From positions 1 through 64,000 of the forward strand of contig NZ_JACDNP010000006.1 in assembly GCF_013839425.1 (NCBI RefSeq): 64,000 bases of DNA, given 5' to 3'. Origin of the DNA: Halorhabdus salina (GTDB lineage: Archaea > Halobacteriota > Halobacteria > Halobacteriales > Haloarculaceae). The number at the start of each line of letters is the position of its first letter. The stretch's first letter is position 1. Positions 6,286 through 63,574 of the stretch are shown here, in pieces. The position numbers were made by a program, and so were the translations under genes. The notes beneath the pieces are model-generated. The model was not told the DNA's origin. It did not search any database and saw only the letters and a program-made list of their open reading frames with translations.

Positions 6286-6363
6286 ATGACACGAACGCAG
6301 CGCCGATCGACAGGACGGATCGACGGTCAGTCGCCCGCCATTACCGGGGGGGCCGAGCAGTGA
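6286..6363 (+). CDS. Possible 25-codon leader peptide overlapping the nrdJ start
   Basis: An ATG at 6286 opens a 25-codon frame that stops with the TGA at 6361-6363. That stop overlaps the GTG start of nrdJ in a GTGA arrangement, the usual sign of translational coupling. The frame differs from that of nrdJ, so it is not an N-terminal extension. The peptide is rich in Arg and Gly, resembles nothing I know, and may matter only for ribosome delivery to the GTG. The stretch 6042-6285 contains no other gene I can see. Confidence 0.4.
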   Translation: MTRTQRRSTGRIDGQSPAITGGAEQ

Positions 6364-9300
6364 GCGACGCCGAATTGAGCGTCGACGAGGTGACGCTGCC
6401 GATCAAGCGGACCGACGGCGAGACGCTCGCCGACCGACTGACTGATAACGCCTATCACAACATCTTGCCGGCGCGGTATCTCCGGAAGGACGCCGACGGC
6501 GACCTCGTCGAGGACCAAGAGGATCTCTTCGAACGGGTTGCCAAGAACATCGCCCTGGCCGAGGCGGTCTACGAGGCCCAAAACCAGGACGTCGAGATCA
6601 CGGTCACGCCCGACCAGCTCAAACCCGATCACCCGCGGCGGGACGAACTCGCCGCGGAGGTCTTCGGGAAAGGGACGACGGCTGATGCGGACGCGGAGAC
6701 CACTCTCACCCAGTACAACGTGAACAAGTTCGCCTACGAGACGGTCGTCCCTGAACTCCCCGAGGCTGTCCGTGCACACGTCGAGGACACCGCCGCGGAG
6801 TTCCAGCGGCTGATGGGGGATCTCTCCTTCATGCCGAACTCGCCGACGCTGATGAACGCCGGCGACGAACTCCAGCAGCTGTCTGCCTGTTTCGTCGATA
6901 GTCCCGCCGACGACATCGACGACATCCATCAGACAGCAAAAGAAGCCGCACAGGTCTTCCAGTCCGGCGGCGGCATGGGCTATGCCTTCTGGAAACTCCG
7001 CCCGTACGGGGACGCAGTCGGCTCGACGGGCGGAATTGCCTCCGGGCCGATCACGTTCATGCGTACCTTCGACCAGATGTGTGAGACGATCGCCCAGGGT
7101 GGCGCGCGGCGCGGTGCCCAGATGGGCGTCATGCGCGTCTCCCATCCGGACGTCATCCAGTTCATTCACGCCAAGAACAAGGACGTCTCCCTGGCTCACA
7201 CCCTACGGCTGAACGATCCTGACGACTTCACCCACACCTCCTTTGCTGACGCCTTGGATGAGGGCCGTGAACTAATCGACGACGAGGGCAAAGTTCCCGA
7301 ACACCTCCGCAACGCCGTCGAGGGCCACCTCTCGAATTTCAACATCTCGGTGGGTATCACCGACGACTTCATGGACGCCCTCCGGAACGACGAGGAGTTT
7401 ACCTTCACGAACCCACGGACTGGCGAGGCCCACATCGTCACCGAGGAAACCAAAGAACTGTACGACATGTTCGGCCTCGGCGAGTACGTCACGGTCGGCG
7501 AGGAACTGTCCGTTCCCGCCGAAGAACTCTGGGACGACATCGTCGAGGGCGCCCACGAGAACGGCGAACCGGGCGTCATCTATCTGGAACGCGTCAACAA
7601 GGAACACTCCTTCGACGTCGAAGCGAATCCAGATCATCAGATTCTCGCGACGAACCCGTGTGTCACCGGTGACACGCTGATCAGTACCGAGGACGGTCTC
7701 GTGCCGGCCGAGGAACTGTACGAACAGGGTGTCGCGCGGGACGTTGTCGTCGACGGACGTCTGAGCGAAGACCGCGTCAAGGAGGCCAGTAGCGTCTTCA
7801 AGACCGGCGAGAAGGACGTGTACAAGCTCGAAACGGAGGAGGGGTACGAACTCCATCTGACGGCCGACCATCGATTGATGACCGACGATGGATGGACCGA
7901 AGCACAGAACCTGGAACCCGGCGACACGGTCCACGTTCAGGATCGCAAGGGTGAGTTCGGGAAGCACGGTTCGGCTGAAGAGGGACGCGTCCTCGGCTGG
8001 CTGGTCGGTGATGGGCATCTCAAACACGGCGAAGAGCGAGCAGTCCTGAACTTCTACGACGAGGACGCGCAGGTCTCCGGGCAGTTCGCCGACGACGTCA
8101 ACGAGATCGTGCGTGCGCCCACTGGCAACGCCGACTACGAGATCGGCGTCAACGAGATCGCGCGGAGCGACGAGTACCGCGGTGCCCAGGCCGTCGAACA
8201 GCGAATCCGCTCGGCGCGCCTCTATGAGTACGCCGAACAGGCTGGCCTCGCCGAGGCGAAACTCCAGGTTCCCGACGCTGTCATGCGCGGGAGCGAGGAG
8301 ATGGCTCGCGGGTTCCTGCGGGCGCTGTTCTCCGCCGATGGGGGCGTTCAGGGCAACGTCGAGAAGGGTGTTTCCGTCCGACTGGCGAGCGTCGACGCGG
8401 ACTTCCTCAAGGATGTCCAGCGACTGCTGATCAACTTCGGCATCGCGAGCAAGGTCTACGAGGACCGGAAGGAAGCCGGAACAAGAGAATTACCCGACGG
8501 AACCGGCGGTACGGCCGAATACGAAACCGAAGGGTTCCACGAACTCGTCATTGTCAAGGACAATCTGGTCCGGTTCCGCGACGAGATCGGGTTCCTGCTC
8601 GACACCAAGCAGGAGTCCCTTGAAGACCGTCTCGCTGACTACGATCGGGGCCCGTACAGCGAGCGGTTCGAGGCGACTGTCCAGTCCGTCGAGTACGACG
8701 ATCATGAAGCAGTGTACGACCTGACTGAGCCGGAAACCCACTCGTTCGTCGCGAACGGGCTTGTAACCCATAATTGCGGTGAGCAACCGCTCGAAGAGTA
8801 CGAGGCCTGTAACCTCGGGCACATCAATCTCTCGACGGTCGCCGACACGGACGCGCCGGACTGGCGAGTCTGGTCTGATCGACACGCCGACGAGTACGAC
8901 GACTTCGAGGATGCGGTCGACGCCTATCTCGAAGAGGCAATCGATTTCGCGGAACTCGACCATCGCATCGAGATGGGGACGCGCTTCCTCGAAAACGTCG
9001 TCACGATGTCGGACTTCCCGGTCGCCGAGATCGAGGAGAAGGTCCGGAATATGCGCAAGATCGGGCTTGGCATCATGGGGCTGGCCCAGCTGTACATCCA
9101 GCTCGGTGTCAAATACGGTAGCGACGAAGCCGACGAGATCGCCCGCCAGGTCATGCAGCACATCAACTACGAGTCCAAGTGGGCGAGTCACGAACTCGCC
9201 GAGGAACGGGGCTCCTTTGCGGAGTGGGACGACTCGAAGTACGCCGATCCAACCGAGTACAACGAGTGGTTCGAACACTACGTCGGCACGGACGCTGCTG

Positions 9301-10607
9301 ACTTCGATGACGGGTTCGCCATTCGCAATCACAACACGACGACGATTGCACCGACCGGAACGACCAGCATGGTCGGCAACACGACCGGCGGGTGTGAACC
9401 AGTCTACAACGTCGCCTACTACAAGAATGTCTCCGACGACGTGCAGGGCGATGAGATGCTCGTCGAATTCGACGACTACTTCCTGCGGGTTCTGACGGAG
9501 AACGGCATCGACGTCGAGGCCGTCAAGAAAGAAGCCCAAGAGCAGATGGCCGAAAACGACTTCGACGGCGTCGAAGGGCTGTCGACGGTGCCAGACGCCA
9601 TCGGCGAGTTGTTCGTCACGACGGGCGACCTCTCGCCCAAGCAGCACGCCTCGATCCAGTGTGCCCTACAGGACGGTGTGGACTCGGCCATCAGCAAGAC
9701 CGTCAACGCGCCCAACGACTCCGACGTCGAGGACGCCAAGGACGTCTTCGAGTACATCTACGAACACGGCGGCAAGGGCGTCACCTACTACCGTGACGGC
9801 ACCCGGAGCAAGCAGGTGCTGACCACGCGGGCTGACAACACCGACTTCGCCGACATGGACGAGGAAGAGGCCGCCGAAACCATCGTCGCACAGATCGACG
9901 ACGTTTTCGGCGGGCTGGAGGCGTTCCTGGACAACGATGGCGTCCGGGATCGACTTACCACGGATATCGAGGACCTGCTCAACGGCGACACCGCACGCAA
10001 GTACGCCGAGAAGAAACCGCGTCCCGACCAACTGCACGGCGTCACCCAGCGCATCGAGACTGGCTACGGCAAACTGTACGTGACGATCAACGAGGACCCC
10101 AAGACAGGCGAACCGTTCGAGCTGTTCGCCAACACGGGTCACTCCGGTGGGTTCACCAATTCCTTCACGGACGCGCTGGCGAAGACGATCTCGGTGGCAC
10201 TGCGCTCGGGCGTCGATCCCTACGAGATCGTCGACAAGCTCCAGGGCATCCGATCGCCGAAGGTCGCCTGGGACAAGGGCGAGCAGATCAACTCCATCCC
10301 GGACGCCTTCGGAACGGCTCTGCGGCGCTATCTCGACGACGAGATCGACCGCACGTACCCACAGCAGCGCACCTTAGAGGAAACGGCTGACGAAGACCGC
10401 CCCGCTGAGCACACGGCCGCGATGTCCAGTTCGGAGGACCACTCGACCGATGGCGGGGCCACAGCCACTGATTCGCCTTCGCTGGCCGATCAGCAGGACA
10501 TCATCGCGAACGGCGAGAGTCCCGAGTGTCCCGAATGTGGCTCGATGTCGCTGTACTACTCCGAAGGCTGCAAGACCTGCGAGTCCTGTGGCTGGTCTGA
10601 GTGCTGA
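6360..10607 (+). CDS. nrdJ: Adenosylcobalamin-dependent (class II) ribonucleoside reductase precursor with intein
   Basis: The enzyme reduces ribonucleotides to deoxyribonucleotides using a B12-generated thiyl radical. The precursor has 1415 residues and the spliced product would have 1043. Visible parts are an N-terminal ATP-cone-like region, the active-site stretch with NSPTLMNAG and SACF (Cys177), the GGG and ARRGAQMG loops, the NPCGE radical-site motif split by the intein, and APTGTTSM with TTGGCEP. A C-terminal zinc-ribbon-like tail has CPECG and CxxCxxC, presumably carrying the redox cysteines. GTG 6360 is the start because family members begin MSDAELS-like; it overlaps the stop of a 25-codon leader frame. 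Fe- or O2-dependent classes are excluded by the motifs. Confidence 0.95.
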   Translation: MSDAELSVDEVTLPIKRTDGETLADRLTDNAYHNILPARYLRKDADGDLVEDQEDLFERVAKNIALAEAVYEAQNQDVEITVTPDQLKPDHPRRDELAAEVFGKGTTADADAETTLTQYNVNKFAYETVVPELPEAVRAHVEDTAAEFQRLMGDLSFMPNSPTLMNAGDELQQLSACFVDSPADDIDDIHQTAKEAAQVFQSGGGMGYAFWKLRPYGDAVGSTGGIASGPITFMRTFDQMCETIAQGGARRGAQMGVMRVSHPDVIQFIHAKNKDVSLAHTLRLNDPDDFTHTSFADALDEGRELIDDEGKVPEHLRNAVEGHLSNFNISVGITDDFMDALRNDEEFTFTNPRTGEAHIVTEETKELYDMFGLGEYVTVGEELSVPAEELWDDIVEGAHENGEPGVIYLERVNKEHSFDVEANPDHQILATNPCVTGDTLISTEDGLVPAEELYEQGVARDVVVDGRLSEDRVKEASSVFKTGEKDVYKLETEEGYELHLTADHRLMTDDGWTEAQNLEPGDTVHVQDRKGEFGKHGSAEEGRVLGWLVGDGHLKHGEERAVLNFYDEDAQVSGQFADDVNEIVRAPTGNADYEIGVNEIARSDEYRGAQAVEQRIRSARLYEYAEQAGLAEAKLQVPDAVMRGSEEMARGFLRALFSADGGVQGNVEKGVSVRLASVDADFLKDVQRLLINFGIASKVYEDRKEAGTRELPDGTGGTAEYETEGFHELVIVKDNLVRFRDEIGFLLDTKQESLEDRLADYDRGPYSERFEATVQSVEYDDHEAVYDLTEPETHSFVANGLVTHNCGEQPLEEYEACNLGHINLSTVADTDAPDWRVWSDRHADEYDDFEDAVDAYLEEAIDFAELDHRIEMGTRFLENVVTMSDFPVAEIEEKVRNMRKIGLGIMGLAQLYIQLGVKYGSDEADEIARQVMQHINYESKWASHELAEERGSFAEWDDSKYADPTEYNEWFEHYVGTDAADFDDGFAIRNHNTTTIAPTGTTSMVGNTTGGCEPVYNVAYYKNVSDDVQGDEMLVEFDDYFLRVLTENGIDVEAVKKEAQEQMAENDFDGVEGLSTVPDAIGELFVTTGDLSPKQHASIQCALQDGVDSAISKTVNAPNDSDVEDAKDVFEYIYEHGGKGVTYYRDGTRSKQVLTTRADNTDFADMDEEEAAETIVAQIDDVFGGLEAFLDNDGVRDRLTTDIEDLLNGDTARKYAEKKPRPDQLHGVTQRIETGYGKLYVTINEDPKTGEPFELFANTGHSGGFTNSFTDALAKTISVALRSGVDPYEIVDKLQGIRSPKVAWDKGEQINSIPDAFGTALRRYLDDEIDRTYPQQRTLEETADEDRPAEHTAAMSSSEDHSTDGGATATDSPSLADQQDIIANGESPECPECGSMSLYYSEGCKTCESCGWSEC
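7659..8774 (+). mobile_element. Intein with LAGLIDADG homing endonuclease in NrdJ
   Basis: Residues 434-805 of the NrdJ precursor (372 residues) form an intein. It starts with Cys434 (CVTGDTLI, block A), has a block B TADH, and ends with HN before Cys806. Two LAGLIDADG-type blocks are visible: LGWLVGDGH and FLRALFSADGG. All splice-site residues are present, so splicing should work; whether the nuclease is active cannot be seen. Removal joins NP to CGEQPL, and Cys806 is the conserved active-site radical cysteine. Inteins at this ribonucleotide reductase site are known in other archaea. Confidence 0.95.
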
Positions 10608-12076: not shown

Positions 12077-13174
12077 TCACTGGGTGCGCAACTGCTCGAC
12101 GAGTTCCGTGATGGCGTTGTGCTGTTTTTTGAGTAGCTGGTTCTGTCGTTTGACTGCCGTCGAGAGTTCGCCCATCTGCTCTCGTAGCTCCTCGACCTCC
12201 TCGGCGGTTGCGACGTCGGGATCGGAGTCGGCAGACAGGTTCAGCGTTTCGTCTCCGCGGTCGGCTGCTCCCATCTCGCTGTCACCGATATCGGTGTCGA
12301 TGGACCGGGCTTCGTCGGTTGTGTCATTGTTCGAATCGACCACAGATTGCTCCGTCTGTTGGGGTTCTGGCTGATCGGACGCAGATTCGGGAGTGGTCGA
12401 TTCGACGGCTGTCCCGGCAGCCGGTTCGGTCGCTGGCTCTGCCGGCGGGTCCTCGACTTCGGCGTCGGTCACGAGTGGGTCGATGTCCGAGCCGAGCGTG
12501 AGGTCGTTCCCGTCCGGGGCCTTGTCATCATCCTCGTCCAGCCCGACGACGCGATCGAGTTCGGCAAGCGTCGCCACGTCGTAGTACTCGAAGACGGCCT
12601 TCTTGAGTGTCTCTTCGACGAGGCGCGCGTCGTCGCGTGGTGTCTTGATGCGTTGTGGGCGGCCGTCGATCGAGATGACGACTTCGGTGGCGACGCTGCC
12701 CTCTTCGAAGGCCAGGCCCGTGAGGTCCTCGTAGGCGTAGGTTTCGAAGTCGTCGTCCCAGACGGTCGCGCCGATGTGTCTGACCAACTGTTGTTCGGCA
12801 ATCACGAGCGTCAACTCACTGAACCGGAAGGCCCCGACGACCGACTCTCCATCAGCGATGACGCCGTGTGCGCCGAGGATCCCCTCAAGCAGGAGTGTCA
12901 GGACGTCTCGCGTGTGATCGCCGGGCACGGAAAACGAGCGCGTGCCGTCGACGTAGGTGAGCTTGAATGTCGTTTTTCGCCGCCCCTCAGAGAGTTCGAG
13001 GCGGTCGGCGTCGTGGGGGAACGCATCGATGCCTTCGTCGCTCAGCAGTCCCTCTGCGTTGTAGACGAGCGTCCGTGTGGGGGTTGCACAGACCACGTCC
13101 TCGTCGCCGATCGGCACGCCTGCCCGAAGTTCCTCGTCACCGAGTTCCTCCCGGACGAGGGCTGGAATCTCCAT
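12077..13174 (-). CDS. Haloarchaeal conserved protein with acidic linker and coiled-coil tail
   Basis: The 365-residue protein has an N-terminal globular domain (1-200) of alternating strands. It looks like two PH-like halves: one around TRTLVYNAEGLLSDEG, the other around FETYAYEDLTGLAFEEG. An acidic, Ser/Thr/Pro-rich linker (about 220-325) and a predicted coiled coil (326-365) follow. ATG 13174 is supported by a TATA-like ATTTAAG about 27 bp upstream (13197-13204), so the transcript should be leaderless. No enzyme motif is visible and I do not assign a function. Confidence 0.65.
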   Translation of the reverse strand: MEIPALVREELGDEELRAGVPIGDEDVVCATPTRTLVYNAEGLLSDEGIDAFPHDADRLELSEGRRKTTFKLTYVDGTRSFSVPGDHTRDVLTLLLEGILGAHGVIADGESVVGAFRFSELTLVIAEQQLVRHIGATVWDDDFETYAYEDLTGLAFEEGSVATEVVISIDGRPQRIKTPRDDARLVEETLKKAVFEYYDVATLAELDRVVGLDEDDDKAPDGNDLTLGSDIDPLVTDAEVEDPPAEPATEPAAGTAVESTTPESASDQPEPQQTEQSVVDSNNDTTDEARSIDTDIGDSEMGAADRGDETLNLSADSDPDVATAEEVEELREQMGELSTAVKRQNQLLKKQHNAITELVEQLRTQ

Positions 13175-13317
13175 GCTCAAGGTGTGCCTGTCCGGCGGCT
13201 TAAATCCGCGGGTAGACGGCGTCGGTCGGCAATTCCAGTTTCGCTGTCGTCGTCGCTGGCCGGTGGACACTGATCGCGTTTCGGTCGGCGTTCCCTCCGG
13301 CGACTCGAAGATGAGAA

Positions 13318-13325
13318 GGTTAAAG
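13318..13325 (+). promoter_or_regulatory. TATA-like box of tRNA-Met
   Basis: GGTTAAAG lies about 30 bp before the first base of the tRNA-Met gene at 13352, the normal archaeal spacing. The rest of 13175-13351 shows no gene. Confidence 0.5.
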
Positions 13326-13351
13326 GCTCCCCTCGCGCAATTCGGGATTGC

Positions 13352-13486
13352 GCCCGGGTGGCTTAGCTGGACATAGCGCCGCACTCATAGGGTCTTTCCA
13401 CGTGTGTGCGTCTGCATGCCTGTCGAGGGTCGTCCCCTCGGACCTGGGTTATGCGGAGATCGAGGGTTCGGAGCCCTCCCCGGGCA
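13352..13486 (+). tRNA. Elongator tRNA-Met(CAT) with intron
   Basis: Acceptor strands GCCCGGG (13352-13358) and CCCGGGC (13479-13485) pair, followed by A. The anticodon stem CCGCA (13379-13383) pairs with TGCGG (13452-13456), with anticodon CAT at 13386-13388. About 61 bases (13390-13450) interrupt the loop after position 37, the usual place for archaeal introns; removal leaves 74 bases. The T-stem GAGGG/CCCTC closes a TTCGGAG loop. Elongator tRNA-Met introns are known in haloarchaea, and the tRNA endonuclease would remove it. Confidence 0.95.
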
Positions 13487-13613
13487 TTCTCAACCCGTCG
13501 CGAACTATCTGTGAGCGACAGCCCTGCGAATGATTTGCGGAGGGCGACGAACCCTGAAAGGTATCGCGCGAACGCCAGTGAGCGCGAGGGTGGGAAATCT
13601 TTGATTTCCCGTT

Positions 13614-13635
13614 GTTCGGAGCCCTCCCCGGGCAT
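13614..13635 (+). repeat. 22-bp copy of the tRNA-Met 3' end (candidate att site)
   Basis: The 22 bases 13466-13487, covering the T-loop, T-stem and 3' acceptor of tRNA-Met, recur exactly at 13614-13635. A 3'-tRNA direct repeat is the footprint left by tyrosine-recombinase integration. Only 126 bp separate the copies, too little for an intact element, and no integrase gene is present. This looks like the scar of an excised or deleted element. Confidence 0.7.
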
Positions 13636-13862
13636 ACTTTATTCGTGGCTCGCGTCGGCGAGCCATACCTCCAAGAATGCGCTGTGGAGGGCGGAGAATC
13701 CGGGAGGGTCTGTGCGAGCGCCAGCGAGTGCAGAGGAGGCCAGACGGAGTCTGGCTGTCGTTCGGCAGCACTCTTCTGGCACTCCTCTGAAACATCATCT
13801 GGCTACGTAGGACCGATAGTAAGTGGTGTGTCTTCACCTGCTGGATACGTGAGTGATCCGGC

Positions 13863-14350
13863 GTGAGTCAGGCGCTCACGGCCACCGATCTCCGCGTCGA
13901 GTGGACCGTCGGTAAGCGCTCGCAGGACGCCGACACACTGCACTGGCCCGACCCCGACAGCGAGGTGCTGCGACCGGCCTGTGACCAGGCGACGGTCAGC
14001 TACGACGGTGCTTCTCGCGAGATCGCGCCGGGAATCTACTGACCTGCGACCTCTGTCAGAACCCGGTGTGTTTCGGCGGCGATCATCACCGGCGTGGCCA
14101 TATCTGTTCAGGTCTGTTACTGAACCGTTCACTTCGAATCCAGGCCTGCCATGTGGCCGTCGTCGCCGTGATCGAGGGCGGGATACCGACTTTCGGGCGG
14201 AGATCGAAAAGGGTCCTGGCCGTCGAGTCCGGGCAGCGGCGTGTCCGGTGCGAGAGCAGTGACGCCGTCGACGGTGACTGGTTGCAGTGGCGGGAGGATC
14301 CGCTTGCGTATCATCGCGGGCCGCTCGCGCGTGCGGTTGGCGGGGGGTGA
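13863..14350 (+). pseudogene. Frameshifted small zinc-finger gene
   Basis: A GTG at 13863 opens a 59-codon frame (motif LHWPDPDSEVLRPACD) that stops at 14042. Immediately after, another frame continues with TCDLC, PVCFGGDHH and RRGHIC, a zinc-finger-like pattern that fits as its extension, and runs to 14350. A single frameshift near 14040 would join them. The join is inferred from the motif pattern only. I do not recognise the family. It lies just beyond the tRNA-Met 3' repeat, in a region that otherwise looks like mobile-element debris. Confidence 0.4.
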
Positions 14351-14356
14351 GTCGGC

Positions 14357-14491
14357 ATGAAGCCGCTCGCTCTGAGATCCGGCTTCGGTTCCTACATGGT
14401 CGTCACGACCGTCGTGATCAGTGCTGGACTCGTCGGTGTCGACATCGCGGGTGGAGCGCCGAAGTGGGCACGGCCCAAAGCATGGACTTGA
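14357..14491 (+). CDS. Possible 44-residue membrane peptide
   Basis: ATG 14357 opens 44 codons with one hydrophobic segment (residues 14-31, VVTTVVISAGLVGVDIAG). It follows the broken zinc-finger frame by 6 bases. Nothing in the sequence identifies a family, and it may be debris of the same element. Confidence 0.3.
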   Translation: MKPLALRSGFGSYMVVTTVVISAGLVGVDIAGGAPKWARPKAWT

Positions 14492-14668
14492 ACCCCCTCG
14501 ACGCAGACGTACGTCGGGGTGGAATCGGCGATCACCCGACTCGCGAGTGTCTGACGTGCGTCCTACATGTCCGGGCTGTGGGTTCCGAGATGGGTTTTGA
14601 GATAATCGACAGCAAGCGCGGCTCTTTCAAACTCAGAAGACGCTATTCGCCGATGAACATTCCGGAAT

Positions 14669-14676
14669 GGTTAAAC
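14669..14676 (+). promoter_or_regulatory. TATA box of the pilin gene
   Basis: GGTTAAAC lies about 32 bp before the ATG at 14705, as expected for a nearly leaderless haloarchaeal transcript. Confidence 0.5.
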
Positions 14677-14704
14677 TACAACCGGTCATTGTTGCGGGTG
14701 TCGC

Positions 14705-15184
14705 ATGCAGATAAAGCAACTATTCGATGGAGAGGATCGCGGGGTGTCGCCGGTCATCGGCGTCATCCTGATGGTAGCGATTACAGTCATCCTGGCAGCC
14801 GTCATCGCGACGTTCGTGATGAACATGGGGCCGCCCGAGGATACGGCGCCGACGGGGAGTTGGGACACGAGTTCTGATCTGTCCGGGTCGAACCACAGTG
14901 TGGTATTCTCCTACGGCGGCGGGGAAGACATCAGCGGTGAAGAATTGACTGTTTCGGTGTCTGGCGCTAGCGACAGTAAATACGACGGTGATTTCGGATG
15001 GGAAGAACTCGGAGGCCCATCTGATGTCGGCGCAAGCGGGAGTGTGAACGTGAGTGCTGGATCTATTGCAAGTACAGACACTTTTTCGGCGAAAGACGTT
15101 GAATTCGGCAACGCAACGATCGAAATTGTCTGGGAGTCCAGCAGCGCCGACAAGTCGAGGACGCTAAAGACCTGGGAGAACTGA
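14705..15184 (+). CDS. Archaeal type IV pilin (PilA-like)
   Basis: The 159-residue precursor has the typical prepilin N-terminus: a charged leader ending DRG, then VSPVIGVILMVAIT and a hydrophobic helix to about residue 40. PibD should cut between Gly13 and Val14. The mature rest is Ser/Gly-rich with no Cys and many negative charges, fitting a surface filament subunit. The hydrophobic core is almost the family consensus. It sits alone in the tRNA-Met remnant region with its own TATA box, so it may have arrived with mobile DNA. Whether it builds an adhesion pilus cannot be told. Confidence 0.9.
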   Translation: MQIKQLFDGEDRGVSPVIGVILMVAITVILAAVIATFVMNMGPPEDTAPTGSWDTSSDLSGSNHSVVFSYGGGEDISGEELTVSVSGASDSKYDGDFGWEELGGPSDVGASGSVNVSAGSIASTDTFSAKDVEFGNATIEIVWESSSADKSRTLKTWEN

Positions 15185-15239
15185 CCGACGAGGTGTCTTT
15201 TCGCGGTTTTTTTCACGCATCGCGATTACGTGGTAGCCC

Positions 15240-15593
15240 GTGTCCCGGGGCCGTGCCTCCCGAACAGCACCTACGCGAGTGCCAGCGCGGATCGTACTGC
15301 GGGCGGACAGTCCGTGTTGTGAGTGTGACTTCAAGCGTCCATACGTTGTGCGGACCCACGCTGGGCGCGAGTATGTCGACGCCCGTCCCCAGGGATGCGC
15401 CTCGATCGCCGGGGAGGGGTCGGCGATAACTGACGGTCTGGGCTGTCCGTGGTGTCACGAACCGGCCCGCGACGGCGACGGACTGACGTGGGTCTGTGAG
15501 CGCGAGGGTTGGGACCCGCCGATTTCACGTCGTTTGGCAGCTTTCCCCGGGGATTTATACGGAGCCACGAACGATGGTGAGTGGCGACGCTGA
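15240..15593 (+). CDS. Hypothetical protein with CxxC pairs, possibly a fragment
   Basis: A GTG at 15240 gives 117 codons. The middle and end have zinc-ribbon-like pairs, CCEC and CPWC, with a lone Cys in TWVCEREGW. The first 25 residues are Arg/Pro-rich and look poorly coding. I do not recognise the family. It may be a small real gene with a later start, or debris like that at 13863. No promoter is evident, and 15594-15732 shows nothing. Confidence 0.35.
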   Translation: MSRGRASRTAPTRVPARIVLRADSPCCECDFKRPYVVRTHAGREYVDARPQGCASIAGEGSAITDGLGCPWCHEPARDGDGLTWVCEREGWDPPISRRLAAFPGDLYGATNDGEWRR

Positions 15594-15732
15594 CAAATGC
15601 ACGTACGGGGTCAACTCTTCCGGTTGCACGCTACGGCGTCTGCCTCTGCAGACAGGGGCCGCGAGCTTTCCAGTGGATCGGCCACTCTTTCTCCGACACT
15701 TTGCACGAGGCGTGGCAGTCAGCAGTGCGTGC

Positions 15733-16221
15733 TTAGTGATCGAACGGGCCTGCGGTGTCCGTCGTCCGCACTTCCCACGAAAACTCGCCGGACTCGTAGA
15801 CGTGGCCGGTGAGATATTCGTAGCTACCGCCCACAACTGCGGCTGGATTGAAACGCGTCGTCCCCAAGCTCTTGTCCAGTAATTCCCCATCGAGGGTGAA
15901 TTCGATCTCGTACCAGGCGGACTCAGTGAAGATCCCGTCGTACGTCTGGCTGTCACCGGGTGTTACCGTCGTTGCTGCAGTCATATTGCGTTGGGATGCT
16001 GGCACAGTGGCTGTGCCAGGTACGTCGCCGGCATCCGTCCCCGGCTCCGATCCTACATCCGTTACGGTAACTCCAATCGCATGCGGCAGGTGATGATCGT
16101 TCTCGAATCGAAGGCTTCCCGCTGGCGGGGCCTCCTCTGTGAACGCACTACAGCCAGCGAGGGCCCCAACCGTGACTGTGCTGAGCGATGCGAGGAATCG
16201 ACGTCTGCGTATGGAGGGCAT
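15733..16221 (-). CDS. Small Tat lipoprotein
   Basis: The 162-residue protein starts with RRRRFL (5-10) and a lipobox LAGC with Cys24, so it should be Tat-exported and lipid-anchored. The mature part (about 30-155) is a beta-sandwich-like domain with the strand pattern GSLRFENDHHLPHAIGVTV. I cannot name the family. A TATA-like AATTAAATAC (16246-16255) about 28 bp upstream of ATG 16221 supports this start. Confidence 0.75.
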   Translation of the reverse strand: MPSIRRRRFLASLSTVTVGALAGCSAFTEEAPPAGSLRFENDHHLPHAIGVTVTDVGSEPGTDAGDVPGTATVPASQRNMTAATTVTPGDSQTYDGIFTESAWYEIEFTLDGELLDKSLGTTRFNPAAVVGGSYEYLTGHVYESGEFSWEVRTTDTAGPFDH

Positions 16222-17309
16222 CTTCCCTTCGTTTTACCGGACCGTATTTAATTGTTCGAGTCCGTCCGAATCGCTATCGGAGGTTTCTCTGTCGGCGTCT
16301 GCGACAAGCCGGATCAACCCGCTCCTGTGTGGATCGTCTGCTGGCAATCTCTACCGTTTCCACGGCTGGACCGTCCGTTCGGGGCAGCAATTCGCTTGGC
16401 TCTCGAGGCACGAGTGGACACTGCACCGACGACCCCGGCTCCCAGCATGCCCCGACTGCCCAGTGATTCCCCTTCTAACCGCTTGTTCCCACCGCTCACG
16501 CTCGGTCGAACCTCCTCGGGAGCGGCCGGGAGGCGACTTGAACCGGTCACGGCGGGGCCAGTGATCCTCTGGGGCTGGGTGTAGTAATCGAGAACGCGTC
16601 CGTCTGATCGGCGTGAGTGTGTGAACCTGTCCCAGAAACTATTTCGAAACTTTCATGTATTGGGGTAAAGAATGATTTCATGGCCGCGAGTTATAGGTTG
16701 TCCACCCATAGTCCACAACAGGCATCCTGTGCCTGCGGCCCTTTTGACACCACACATGCACTACGGTGGAGTCTCGCCTTCGTGATCAGAGTCGGTAACT
16801 CGAGACACAAAGAACAGGGACCTCTCCCGGACGGGAGCGGGTTTCGGCAATTCATCAGGCGTGTTTTGAACGCCCTCGCGGGCCCGGAATTTCGAGCTGC
16901 GATCTGCGCCGCAAACGAACCTGTTGTTTGTGGGTTTGGCGCTTCAACAACTGGCTACCGGGAGAACACGTGATCCCACTCAGAATTGGGCCAAGCTTCT
17001 GCTTGTCTGTCCGTCAACGAACGTCCGGACGACGAAATCGCCCAATACAGGGATGGGACCGTCGTAGTTGCCGCCTTGGCCACGGAGACAGCACCGGGAA
17101 ACGGCGTGTTCCGGTACTCATCGCCCGGCCATAGTTTATCAATCACGATTGATCCTGTCTGCCCTTCACAATTGGGATCCATTCCAATTATTTTATACGG
17201 GTGAGCGACCAACGTGCAGCAGAATGGAACGACGCGACGGATGGCGACCGAGGACAGTCGGTCGGCGGCACCGTCCGCGGACCGGATCGTACAGCAACAG
17301 GAGCGAGCG
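16222..17309. other. About 1.1 kb without a supportable gene
   Basis: Several frames are open here (longest about 140 codons), but none shows family motifs, a good start or coding-like codon choice. The segment looks less GC-rich than its surroundings around 16600-17000. A TATTTTATAC box at about 17187-17197 probably serves ribE. I saw no FMN-riboswitch-like fold upstream of ribE. Confidence 0.5.
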
Positions 17310-17948
17310 ATGTTCACGGGTATAATTGAAGACGTCGGCACCATCGTCGAGATCGACCGACGGGCAGAAGCGCTGGTTCTGACGATTCACAGTGAGGAGA
17401 TCGCGCCTGAACTCGGCGATAGCGTGGCCGTCAACGGCCCATGCCTGACTGTTGTCGATATCGACCGGGCGGCCCAGACGTTCACCGTCGAAGTGACGCC
17501 CGAGACCTACCGACGGACGACGCTGGAAGAACTCCGCCCGGACAGCCCGGTCAATCTCGAATCGGCACTGACGCTGGCAGATGAACTTGGCGGCCACCTC
17601 GTGACGGGCCACGTCGACGGGACCGGCGTCGTGACGGATCTCCGCCGGGAAGAGAAAGCCCGGATCTACTCGATCCGGCCGCCCGAAGACTTGCTGCCGT
17701 ACCTGGCTCCGAAAGGGTCGGTGGCCGTCGACGGCGTCAGTTTGACCGTCGTTGACGTCGATCGCACGTTCAGCGTCTCGATCACCGACTTCACCGAAGA
17801 GGAGACGCTCCTCCGGGAGACGAGTGTCGGCGACACGGTCAACATCGAAGTCGACGTGATCGCCCGATATCTCGAACGACTGGCCGGCAGCGCCGATGCC
17901 GGTGCTGGTGATCTGATGGAGAAATTAGCATCAATGGAGGGTACATAA
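17310..17948 (+). CDS. ribE: Riboflavin synthase, bacterial alpha-subunit type
   Basis: This enzyme makes riboflavin from two lumazine molecules. The 212-residue protein has the two lumazine-binding repeats of the bacterial/yeast family. The first starts MFTGIIEDVG, with VNGPCLTV inside; the second starts near GHVDGTG (about 100), with VDGVSLTV. I chose ATG 17310 because it gives the canonical MFTGI start; a GTG at 17214 and an ATG at 17241 lie upstream in frame. Many archaea use an unrelated riboflavin synthase, so this type suggests acquisition from bacteria. Its TAA overlaps the next ATG (TAATG). Confidence 0.92.
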   Translation: MFTGIIEDVGTIVEIDRRAEALVLTIHSEEIAPELGDSVAVNGPCLTVVDIDRAAQTFTVEVTPETYRRTTLEELRPDSPVNLESALTLADELGGHLVTGHVDGTGVVTDLRREEKARIYSIRPPEDLLPYLAPKGSVAVDGVSLTVVDVDRTFSVSITDFTEEETLLRETSVGDTVNIEVDVIARYLERLAGSADAGAGDLMEKLASMEGT

Positions 17949-63052: not shown

Positions 63053-63499
63053 ACTGGTACTGGCTACATTTCCATCTGGTTCTGAGTTCCCGACACGACG
63101 TGGCGGGCATTTGGCCATATTTGTTCCATAATATAATTATCATTCATTCACCTTTTCTCGACACTGGGCCACGGTTCGATTGAGGTCACCGACCTGTCTG
63201 TTGCCGGGCATTTTCGGGCCACTTGACCCGGTACTGATGGCGACGATGGCTTTCGGCTTCATCGAGACTCGATTCAGCTGCAGGTAGACTTACTGTGTTT
63301 GTTTTCTCTGGTCTACACCCACTTGCCACATACCTTGGCACCGCGCTTCGTTCGTTATAGTCGGCATCAGCAGGGGTGACGCGGATTTGAACCGGATGCA
63401 GACATTTTTGCTCACTCCGTTCGCTGTGCGGGCTGTGTCTGCCTGGGTTCACATCTGATTGGACCACTTGTCGCTCGCGGATTTGCTCACCGCAAAATA
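63053..63499. other. Spacer with a partial tRNA-like repeat
   Basis: No gene is supported over these 447 bp. Bases 63381-63394 repeat 14 bases of the tRNA-Val T-arm (63509-63522), and the flanking CAGGGGTGACGC looks like a decayed acceptor end. The 63125-63140 stretch is AT-rich (contains ATAATTAT). Confidence 0.4.
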
Positions 63500-63574
63500 T
63501 GGGTTGGGGCGGATTTGAACCGCCGACCTCCTCCATGTCAAGGAGGTGTCATAACCAACCTAGACTACCAACCC
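63500..63574 (-). tRNA. tRNA-Val(GAC)
   Basis: On the minus strand the acceptor GGGTTGG pairs with CCAACCC, followed by A. The anticodon stem CTCCT/GAGGA (with flanking bases) carries loop TGACATG, anticodon GAC. The T-arm GGCGG-TTCAAAT-CCGCC is perfect. No intron. Confidence 0.95.

Follow-up and report, generated by a model that had tools for sequence, protein, structure and literature searches.

Integron cassette arrays carry a folded end signal with paired arms and a variable apical part, and they grow at one end. Casposons, with a Cas1-family integrase, duplicate their target at a tRNA end. The sequences that we describe here, modules that lie directly behind the tRNA genes of haloarchaea, differ from integron cassettes in that they contain no genes and in that their arms follow each tRNA. 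Another class of tRNA-related sequence is the t-elements of Haloferax volcanii, reportedly described by Hoelzle and colleagues in 2012. Like the modules they have tRNA-like parts; as RNAs, t-elements are cut by tRNase Z and RNase P (PMC4326828, PMC4946936), and in the cited portions of those accounts they lie upstream of 5S rRNA. The modules, in contrast, are predicted to fold into a long hairpin that mostly pairs the T-loop sequence, and they are always found behind a tRNA.

Two further haloarchaeal systems are similar in other respects. Integrative elements (IGEs) at tRNA 3' ends share with the modules a direct repeat of the 3' part of the tRNA, a tRNA that remains whole and an older copy in the distal position, according to the cited portion of PMC7921747; the modules, however, are gene-free, about 95-235 nt long, of fixed spacing, equipped with an antisense arm and present at many tRNAs per genome. 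An earlier mention of such sequences as remnants possibly concerns the same phenomenon in part, and the portion consulted gives no structure, family or mechanism. The SMRs, MITEs and PATEs of Haloquadratum are likewise short, non-coding and palindrome-rich, and the SMRs favour certain targets and have no known engine (PMC3119063). As described in the cited sections of that study, the Haloquadratum repeats target near-terminal palindromes of other elements rather than tRNA tails, and have no arms taken from a tRNA of their own.

The window analyzed here, a 64,000-nt stretch of Halorhabdus salina DNA (contig NZ_JACDNP010000006.1, positions 1-64000), carries two exact copies of GTTCGGAGCCCTCCCCGGGCAT on the + strand, at 13466-13487 and 13614-13635, with 0 mismatches and a gap of 126 bp (13488-13613). 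At up to 3 mismatches no further match exists in the 64 kb, and 100 shuffles gave a chance expectation of 0.00 for such a pair. The first copy comprises one flanking T and, before it, the final 21 nt of the elongator tRNA-Met gene, which contains an intron (13352-13486, + strand; RF00005, 44.6 bits, E 2.2e-7). An ARAGORN run on the window did not detect this gene. The original prediction, which had reported an exact 22-bp duplication of the 3' end of an intron-containing tRNA-Met, was therefore correct in both the repeat and its host. A search of 13000-17500 against Rfam (E at most 1) returned the tRNA as its sole match and no known RNA family. We estimate at roughly 93% the probability that the 22-mer repeat is part of a family of structured modules found pervasively at the tRNA ends of haloarchaea. 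The members of this family are non-coding, strongly folded modules of about 95-235 nt directly behind tRNA genes, often one to three behind each. The family is apparently new to description, as we found no account of it in the open-access literature searched.

The 126-nt interior of the repeat is a non-coding module, which the listed open reading frames merely traverse. Module A (13487-13634, + strand, ~148 nt) begins with a linker hairpin, H1 (GTCGC..GCGAC, 13497-13519), followed by an antisense arm (GGAGGGC..GAACCC, 13539-13554) that pairs in the fold with the tail copy as helices 2 and 3, then by the apical hairpins P4 and P5 (CGCGCGAACGCCAGTGAGCGCG; GGGAAATCTTTGATTTCCC; 13563-13610), and closes with a sense copy of the tRNA tail; the second 22-mer (13614-13635) is this sense arm and the module's end. 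Its RNA fold has a z-score of -4.4, and it scores 139.2 bits with covariance model R1, which was built from an alignment of 27 sequences that includes module A itself. The hairpin motif GCGAACGNNAGTGAGCGC is uncommon in the window, where its one match lies inside module A. Module B (13635-13781, + strand), outside the training set, follows in tandem (R1 109.5 bits, E 6.7e-19) and ends in a degenerate tail copy (13760-13781). The earlier reader overlooked that likeness extends past the 22-mer, at about 70% over 124 bp (13466-13589 versus 13614-13736, own-genome search), because two homologous modules stand in tandem. Remains of further modules lie at 15444-15626 on the same strand, comprising an end (15444-15553; R1 13.9 bits) and a start (15554-15626; 31.3 bits), and 15496-15554 resembles the end of module A at 76%. 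The sole tRNA that ARAGORN reported in the window is a tRNA-Val(GAC) on the - strand (63500-63574). A degenerate module sits behind it (63372-63499, - strand), where the tail of this tRNA-Val recurs at offset 128 with 4 mismatches.

Evidence for a conserved structure comes from the modules of tRNA-Met loci. RNAalifold on the alignment of 27 such modules (A1), from which two were left out because their interior differs (G010_2 and G096_2), gave 26 pairs, 17 of them with changes on both sides. Three further pairs were added by hand, and in the resulting 29 pairs (780 cells) 95.1% of cells are paired and 17 pairs show changes on both sides. Double-change cells number 142 compared with 42.1 in shuffled data, a level that 0 of 500 shuffles attained; the covariation score is 0.510 compared with 0.201 when shuffled, and pairing falls to 32-43% when the partner is shifted by 1-3 columns. 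Covariation of the tRNA-Met modules is thus strong, and it sits in helices 1, 5 and 6, that is, in the linker hairpin (4 of 5 pairs changed on both sides), P4 (9 of 10) and P5 (4 of 5). The tRNA tail supplies the 3' strand of helices 2 and 3, which barely vary and are little informative alone.

The spacing of the repeat is conserved as well. We examined 90 tRNA-Met loci with up to 12 kb of downstream DNA; they represent 89 genomes out of the 137 in the family that matched tRNA-Met. A tail copy (at most 3 mismatches) was present in 19 loci, and in all 19 the first copy lies 143-156 nt behind the tRNA, a uniformity that is not that of scattered att sites of large elements. In three Halorhabdus relatives (G001, G005 and G006) the copy lies at 148-149 nt; a fourth (G004) has module A with a degenerate end, while G002 is without module A and has a relative of module B directly behind tRNA-Met. 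Module A is proximal to B in both Halorhabdus genomes that hold both (the window's genome, G000, and G006). In G269 two tandem modules are identical at 153 of 155 positions. The original prediction had taken the repeat as the marker of a past integration, its copies only 126 bp apart since the element was gone or had been moved, and had proposed a comparison across strains. This comparison shows the repeat at the same distance in relatives, largely as expected of a stable local feature, and an interior that is a conserved, covarying module rather than the remains of a large element; together with the same arrangement at many other tRNAs, it speaks against that interpretation.

Integrative elements do nevertheless use this tRNA. 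In G003, about 38 kb of DNA with an integrase separates tRNA-Met from module B. The G003 insert encodes a tyrosine recombinase (L016:15793-16332; PF00589, E 4.9e-18). As an observation apart, the insert (L016:2938-20000, L017 and L018:1-1266) contains several viral-family proteins and is provirus-like, and a left-end motif like that of G003 (AAACTTTACATACCC) lies behind tRNA-Met in G015 and G141, and more loosely in G018 and G027. In G018, a single 3.04-Mb contig holds tRNA-Met loci near 46 kb and near 3.03 Mb (L136 and L137), and the sequences behind the two are identical for at least 190 nt.

In the window itself, module B is followed by the relic of an integrative element's left end (13782-14042, + strand), recognized by the match of 13760-13831 to the tRNA/element junction of G003 (73.6%) and by an open reading frame, 13863-14042, whose match to viral family phrog_12896 (E 1.6e-9) covers only positions 1-55 of 261 and which thus looks like a truncated viral gene. 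The debris behind the repeat that the original prediction had described is therefore real and partly a provirus relic, although it is separate from the 22-bp repeat. The supposed broken zinc-finger gene is this reading frame related to phrog_12896, and no zinc-finger family matched it; the pilin in the debris is genuine (14705-15184; Pilin_N, E 1.4e-22), and G002 contains a partial relative. Behind module B of G003, DNA that matches window position 16547 onward begins within about 280 nt, indicating that 13782-16546 is extra DNA in the window. On the - strand, a 162-aa reading frame at 15733-16221 has a lipoprotein-like start and no family match. Elsewhere, 6360-10607 encodes 1415 aa that, from the translation only, read like an intein-interrupted ribonucleotide reductase.

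The modules are widespread among haloarchaea. Matches to R1 occur in 54 of 146 family genomes at E at most 0.01 (41 of 96 among good ones) and in 101 of 392 genomes of the order at E at most 1e-4, representing 43 of 95 genera. All 28 loci that were checked lie directly behind tRNA-Met: 18 are R1 loci in other families and 10 are named loci that a gapped tail-tail pattern picked up, at least 6 of which were already among the 89 family genomes. In both sets the tail copies are a consequence of how the loci were selected, but the adjoining tRNA gene is not. The named holders include Halorientalis persicus, H. pallida, H. marina, Natronorubrum texcoconense, Halopiger goleimassiliensis and Halorhabdus amylolytica. 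A virus or plasmid origin of the module was considered and rejected: blastn of 13340-13770 gave one 41-bp match among phages and two tRNA-only matches among plasmids, none containing a module, and a pattern scan found 0 viral contigs with a module end. A scan for the tRNA-Met tail found one viral contig (L052) that has its 20 nt exactly.

Modules are by no means restricted to tRNA-Met. Eighteen weak R1 loci of the family lie away from this tRNA, and among the 17 examined (G087 was left out) 12 hold another tRNA, the remaining 5 having none by ARAGORN. A copy of the own tail with at most 4 mismatches is found in 10 of the 17, with at most 1 in 8 of them, at Leu-TAA (two loci), Ser-CGA, Arg-CCG (two), Pro-CGG, Leu-CAA (three) and Arg-GCG. 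At three tRNA-Leu(CAA) loci (L171, L174 and L179) the modules measure 203-244 nt, and by eye their interiors seem to repeat the anticodon and variable arms of tRNA-Leu too.

A survey independent of R1 searched the 500 nt downstream of each tRNA for that tRNA's own last 20 nt with at most 2 mismatches. Duplicates, one falsely predicted intron and tRNAs followed by less than 400 nt of DNA were dropped, and beyond the window's genome the survey covered the best-scoring tRNAs only. In the window's genome, 16 of 40 tRNAs (the window's elongator tRNA-Met being absent from the 40) have such a copy, compared with 2 of 1292 for foreign tails and 0 of 40 upstream. The corresponding counts are 10 of 30 in G006 (foreign 1 of 768, upstream 0 of 30) and 9 of 31 in three genomes from three other families, G166, G167 and G220 (7 of 796 and 0 of 31). 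In a phylum sample of 12 other genomes, which includes one haloarchaeon with 2 of the 33 loci, the count is 0 of 33, with 6 of 860 for foreign tails and 0 of 33 upstream. When up to 4 mismatches are allowed, the four samples yield 20 of 40, 11 of 30, 11 of 31 and 2 of 33 tRNAs, with 0, 0, 0 and 2 upstream. In the samples examined, the modules are confined to haloarchaea.

Sixty-two modules collected in this way share one anatomy of linker hairpin, antisense arm, apical hairpins and tail copy. An exact complement of at least 10 nt to the own tail is present in 30 of the 62 interiors, compared with 38 of 1390 comparisons with foreign tails and 0 of 70 control segments. The fold z-score is -3 or lower in 38 of 62 modules (median -3.83) and in 0 of 62 control segments. 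In all 62, identity between copy and tRNA stops no more than 5 nt upstream of the 20-mer, which is at the T loop; past the discriminator base identity is rare, with no further match in 33 of 62. In 57 of 62 modules the interior pairs with 12 or more of the final 20 nt of the tail copy, and for the most part the fold predicts no free T loop. Swapping in a foreign tail weakens the fold by a mean of 5.5 kcal/mol, although only 22 of 62 modules fold strictly best with their own tail, an effect weaker than hoped because the T-loop sequence is common to most tRNAs.

The modules also have a preferred strand. The tRNA-sense strand folds better in 26 of 29 tRNA-Met modules (p 1.5e-5) and in 41 of 62 others (p 0.015), compared with 52 of 100 and 34 of 58 in controls and 105 of 129 among tRNA genes. 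In the conserved helices G-U cells outnumber A-C cells 35 to 10, or 22 to 10 without pair 86-120, the weakest. This bias and the G-U excess argue for selection on one strand, more easily as RNA than as DNA, although a recombination mechanism that uses one DNA strand may also be responsible. The idea that the modules are terminators was rejected, as T-runs show no clear difference between tRNAs with and without a module: TTTT occurs within 12 nt behind 8 of 20, 2 of 11 and 3 of 11 tRNAs with a module and behind 5 of 20, 6 of 19 and 2 of 20 without.

Between conserved flanks, whole modules are present in some genomes and absent from others. Five genome pairs (G089/G093, G092/G094, G094/G095, G065/G068 and G074/G081) differ in this way; their shared flanks are 72.7-89% identical over 1000-1292 nt and begin 71-126 nt behind the last tail. 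There are 9 such comparisons in total, under a filter that let the distances differ by at most 15 nt. G089, which has no module, and G093, which has one, are for example 89% identical over 1237 nt that begin 126 and 118 nt, respectively, past the last tail. Between the window's genome and G006 the same tRNA may have 0 versus 1, 1 versus 3, or 2 versus 3-4 copies. The best match of a module from the window's genome is the distal G006 module for iMet (0.88), Val-TAC, Ser-TGA and Thr-GGT, which favours growth on the tRNA side; Arg-CCG is an exception, in that the module common to both genomes is by BLAST the middle of three, which misfits simple proximal growth, and the first iMet module is a mosaic.

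Modules behind different tRNAs are related through their apical parts. Whole-interior identity between different tRNAs (mean 0.58, maximum 0.79) is uninformative, unlike the apical segments, which were taken from 54 of the 62 modules (8 were dropped for want of a recognizable arm or for length). Apical cores of different tRNAs are at least 80% identical in 17 of 1366 pairs, compared with 0 and 0 in two shuffled sets, and at least 70% identical in 159 pairs, compared with 2 and 6. Those of Val-CAC and Arg-TCG in the same genome are 90% identical.

The architecture, the covariation, the specificity for the own tRNA, the strand bias, the sharing of apical cores and the presence or absence of modules between conserved flanks are observations. 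To account for them, we propose that the modules are a non-autonomous mobile repeat and that mobility is the main force shaping the family, a reading that we hold to be on balance probable. Each module consists of four parts: a linker hairpin; a stretch antisense to part of the T arm and acceptor of the resident tRNA; an apical section, with at least one hairpin, that recurs in modules of other tRNAs; and the last ~20 nt of the resident tRNA in sense orientation, which together with the antisense stretch close the long hairpin. Insertion, aimed at the tRNA end, is probably the main process, and a single strand, either the tRNA-sense RNA or that DNA strand, is probably the folded form that matters. 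Each new module would be added between the tRNA and the older modules and leave the tRNA intact, while older modules would decay and whole modules would be lost between direct repeats. In a more specific version, which we advance tentatively, the module would be a tRNA-parasitic element, a non-coding RNA or single strand that, when folded, ends in the host tRNA's tail, that spreads from tRNA to tRNA and that takes on arms matching each new host gene in sense and antisense, its arrays growing on the tRNA side as CRISPR arrays grow at the leader. Counting against mobility, no recombinase, transposase or reverse transcriptase is linked to the modules, no free or circular form was seen, patchiness is explicable by loss alone, and the strand bias and part of the covariation also fit a cellular RNA.

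A cellular, cis-acting RNA is in our judgment less probable, although it is the main rival. The module would be transcribed behind the tRNA and its hairpins would act in 3' processing, in termination or as a released small RNA, with the tail copy serving as a tRNase Z-type signal or keeping the antisense arm off the tRNA. Covariation, better folding of the sense strand and the excess of G-U over A-C are what one would expect of such an RNA, and Haloferax employs tRNA-like t-elements as substrates of RNase P and tRNase Z, according to the cited portions of PMC4326828 and PMC4946936. However, half or more of the tRNAs in the same genome are without modules, and orthologous tRNAs within one genus hold from 0 to 3, which is odd for a needed signal. 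Rather improbable in our view is a neutral by-product of DNA metabolism, in which strand switching at the tails of tRNAs would create inverted copies, gene conversion with the tRNA as donor would keep the sense copy and quasi-palindrome correction the antisense copy, and unequal crossing over would multiply the whole. Near-identical tandem modules are consistent with this, as are the repeat-mediated deletions described in the cited portion of PMC3119063 for Haloquadratum, but it leaves unexplained the apical cores common to different tRNAs, the narrow 143-156 nt spacing across families, the strand bias and the confinement to haloarchaea in our samples.

Very unlikely, finally, is the idea that the repeat is an attL/attR scar left at tRNA-Met by a single lost integrative element. 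The use of this tRNA by integrative elements, as by the one with a tyrosine recombinase in G003, and the relic behind module B lend it some credit, and what survives of the original integration reading is that such elements are real and that whole modules are gained or lost, so that an insertion process may underlie the repeat. Equal spacing and a covarying interior in many genera, and the same arrangement at many other tRNAs, contradict it, and we reject a one-element scar for the 22-bp pair unless many elements left the same small remnant.

Of the tRNA genes sampled in five haloarchaea, about a third to half carry modules, which makes them a major genome feature that annotation passes over, and they account for repeats of tRNA tails otherwise taken as scars of lost viruses or islands. 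If the modules are mobile, as we propose, they would rank among the smallest elements that target tRNA ends and would raise the question of how their arms come to fit dozens of tRNAs. If they are instead functional, they would represent an unknown layer of tRNA expression.
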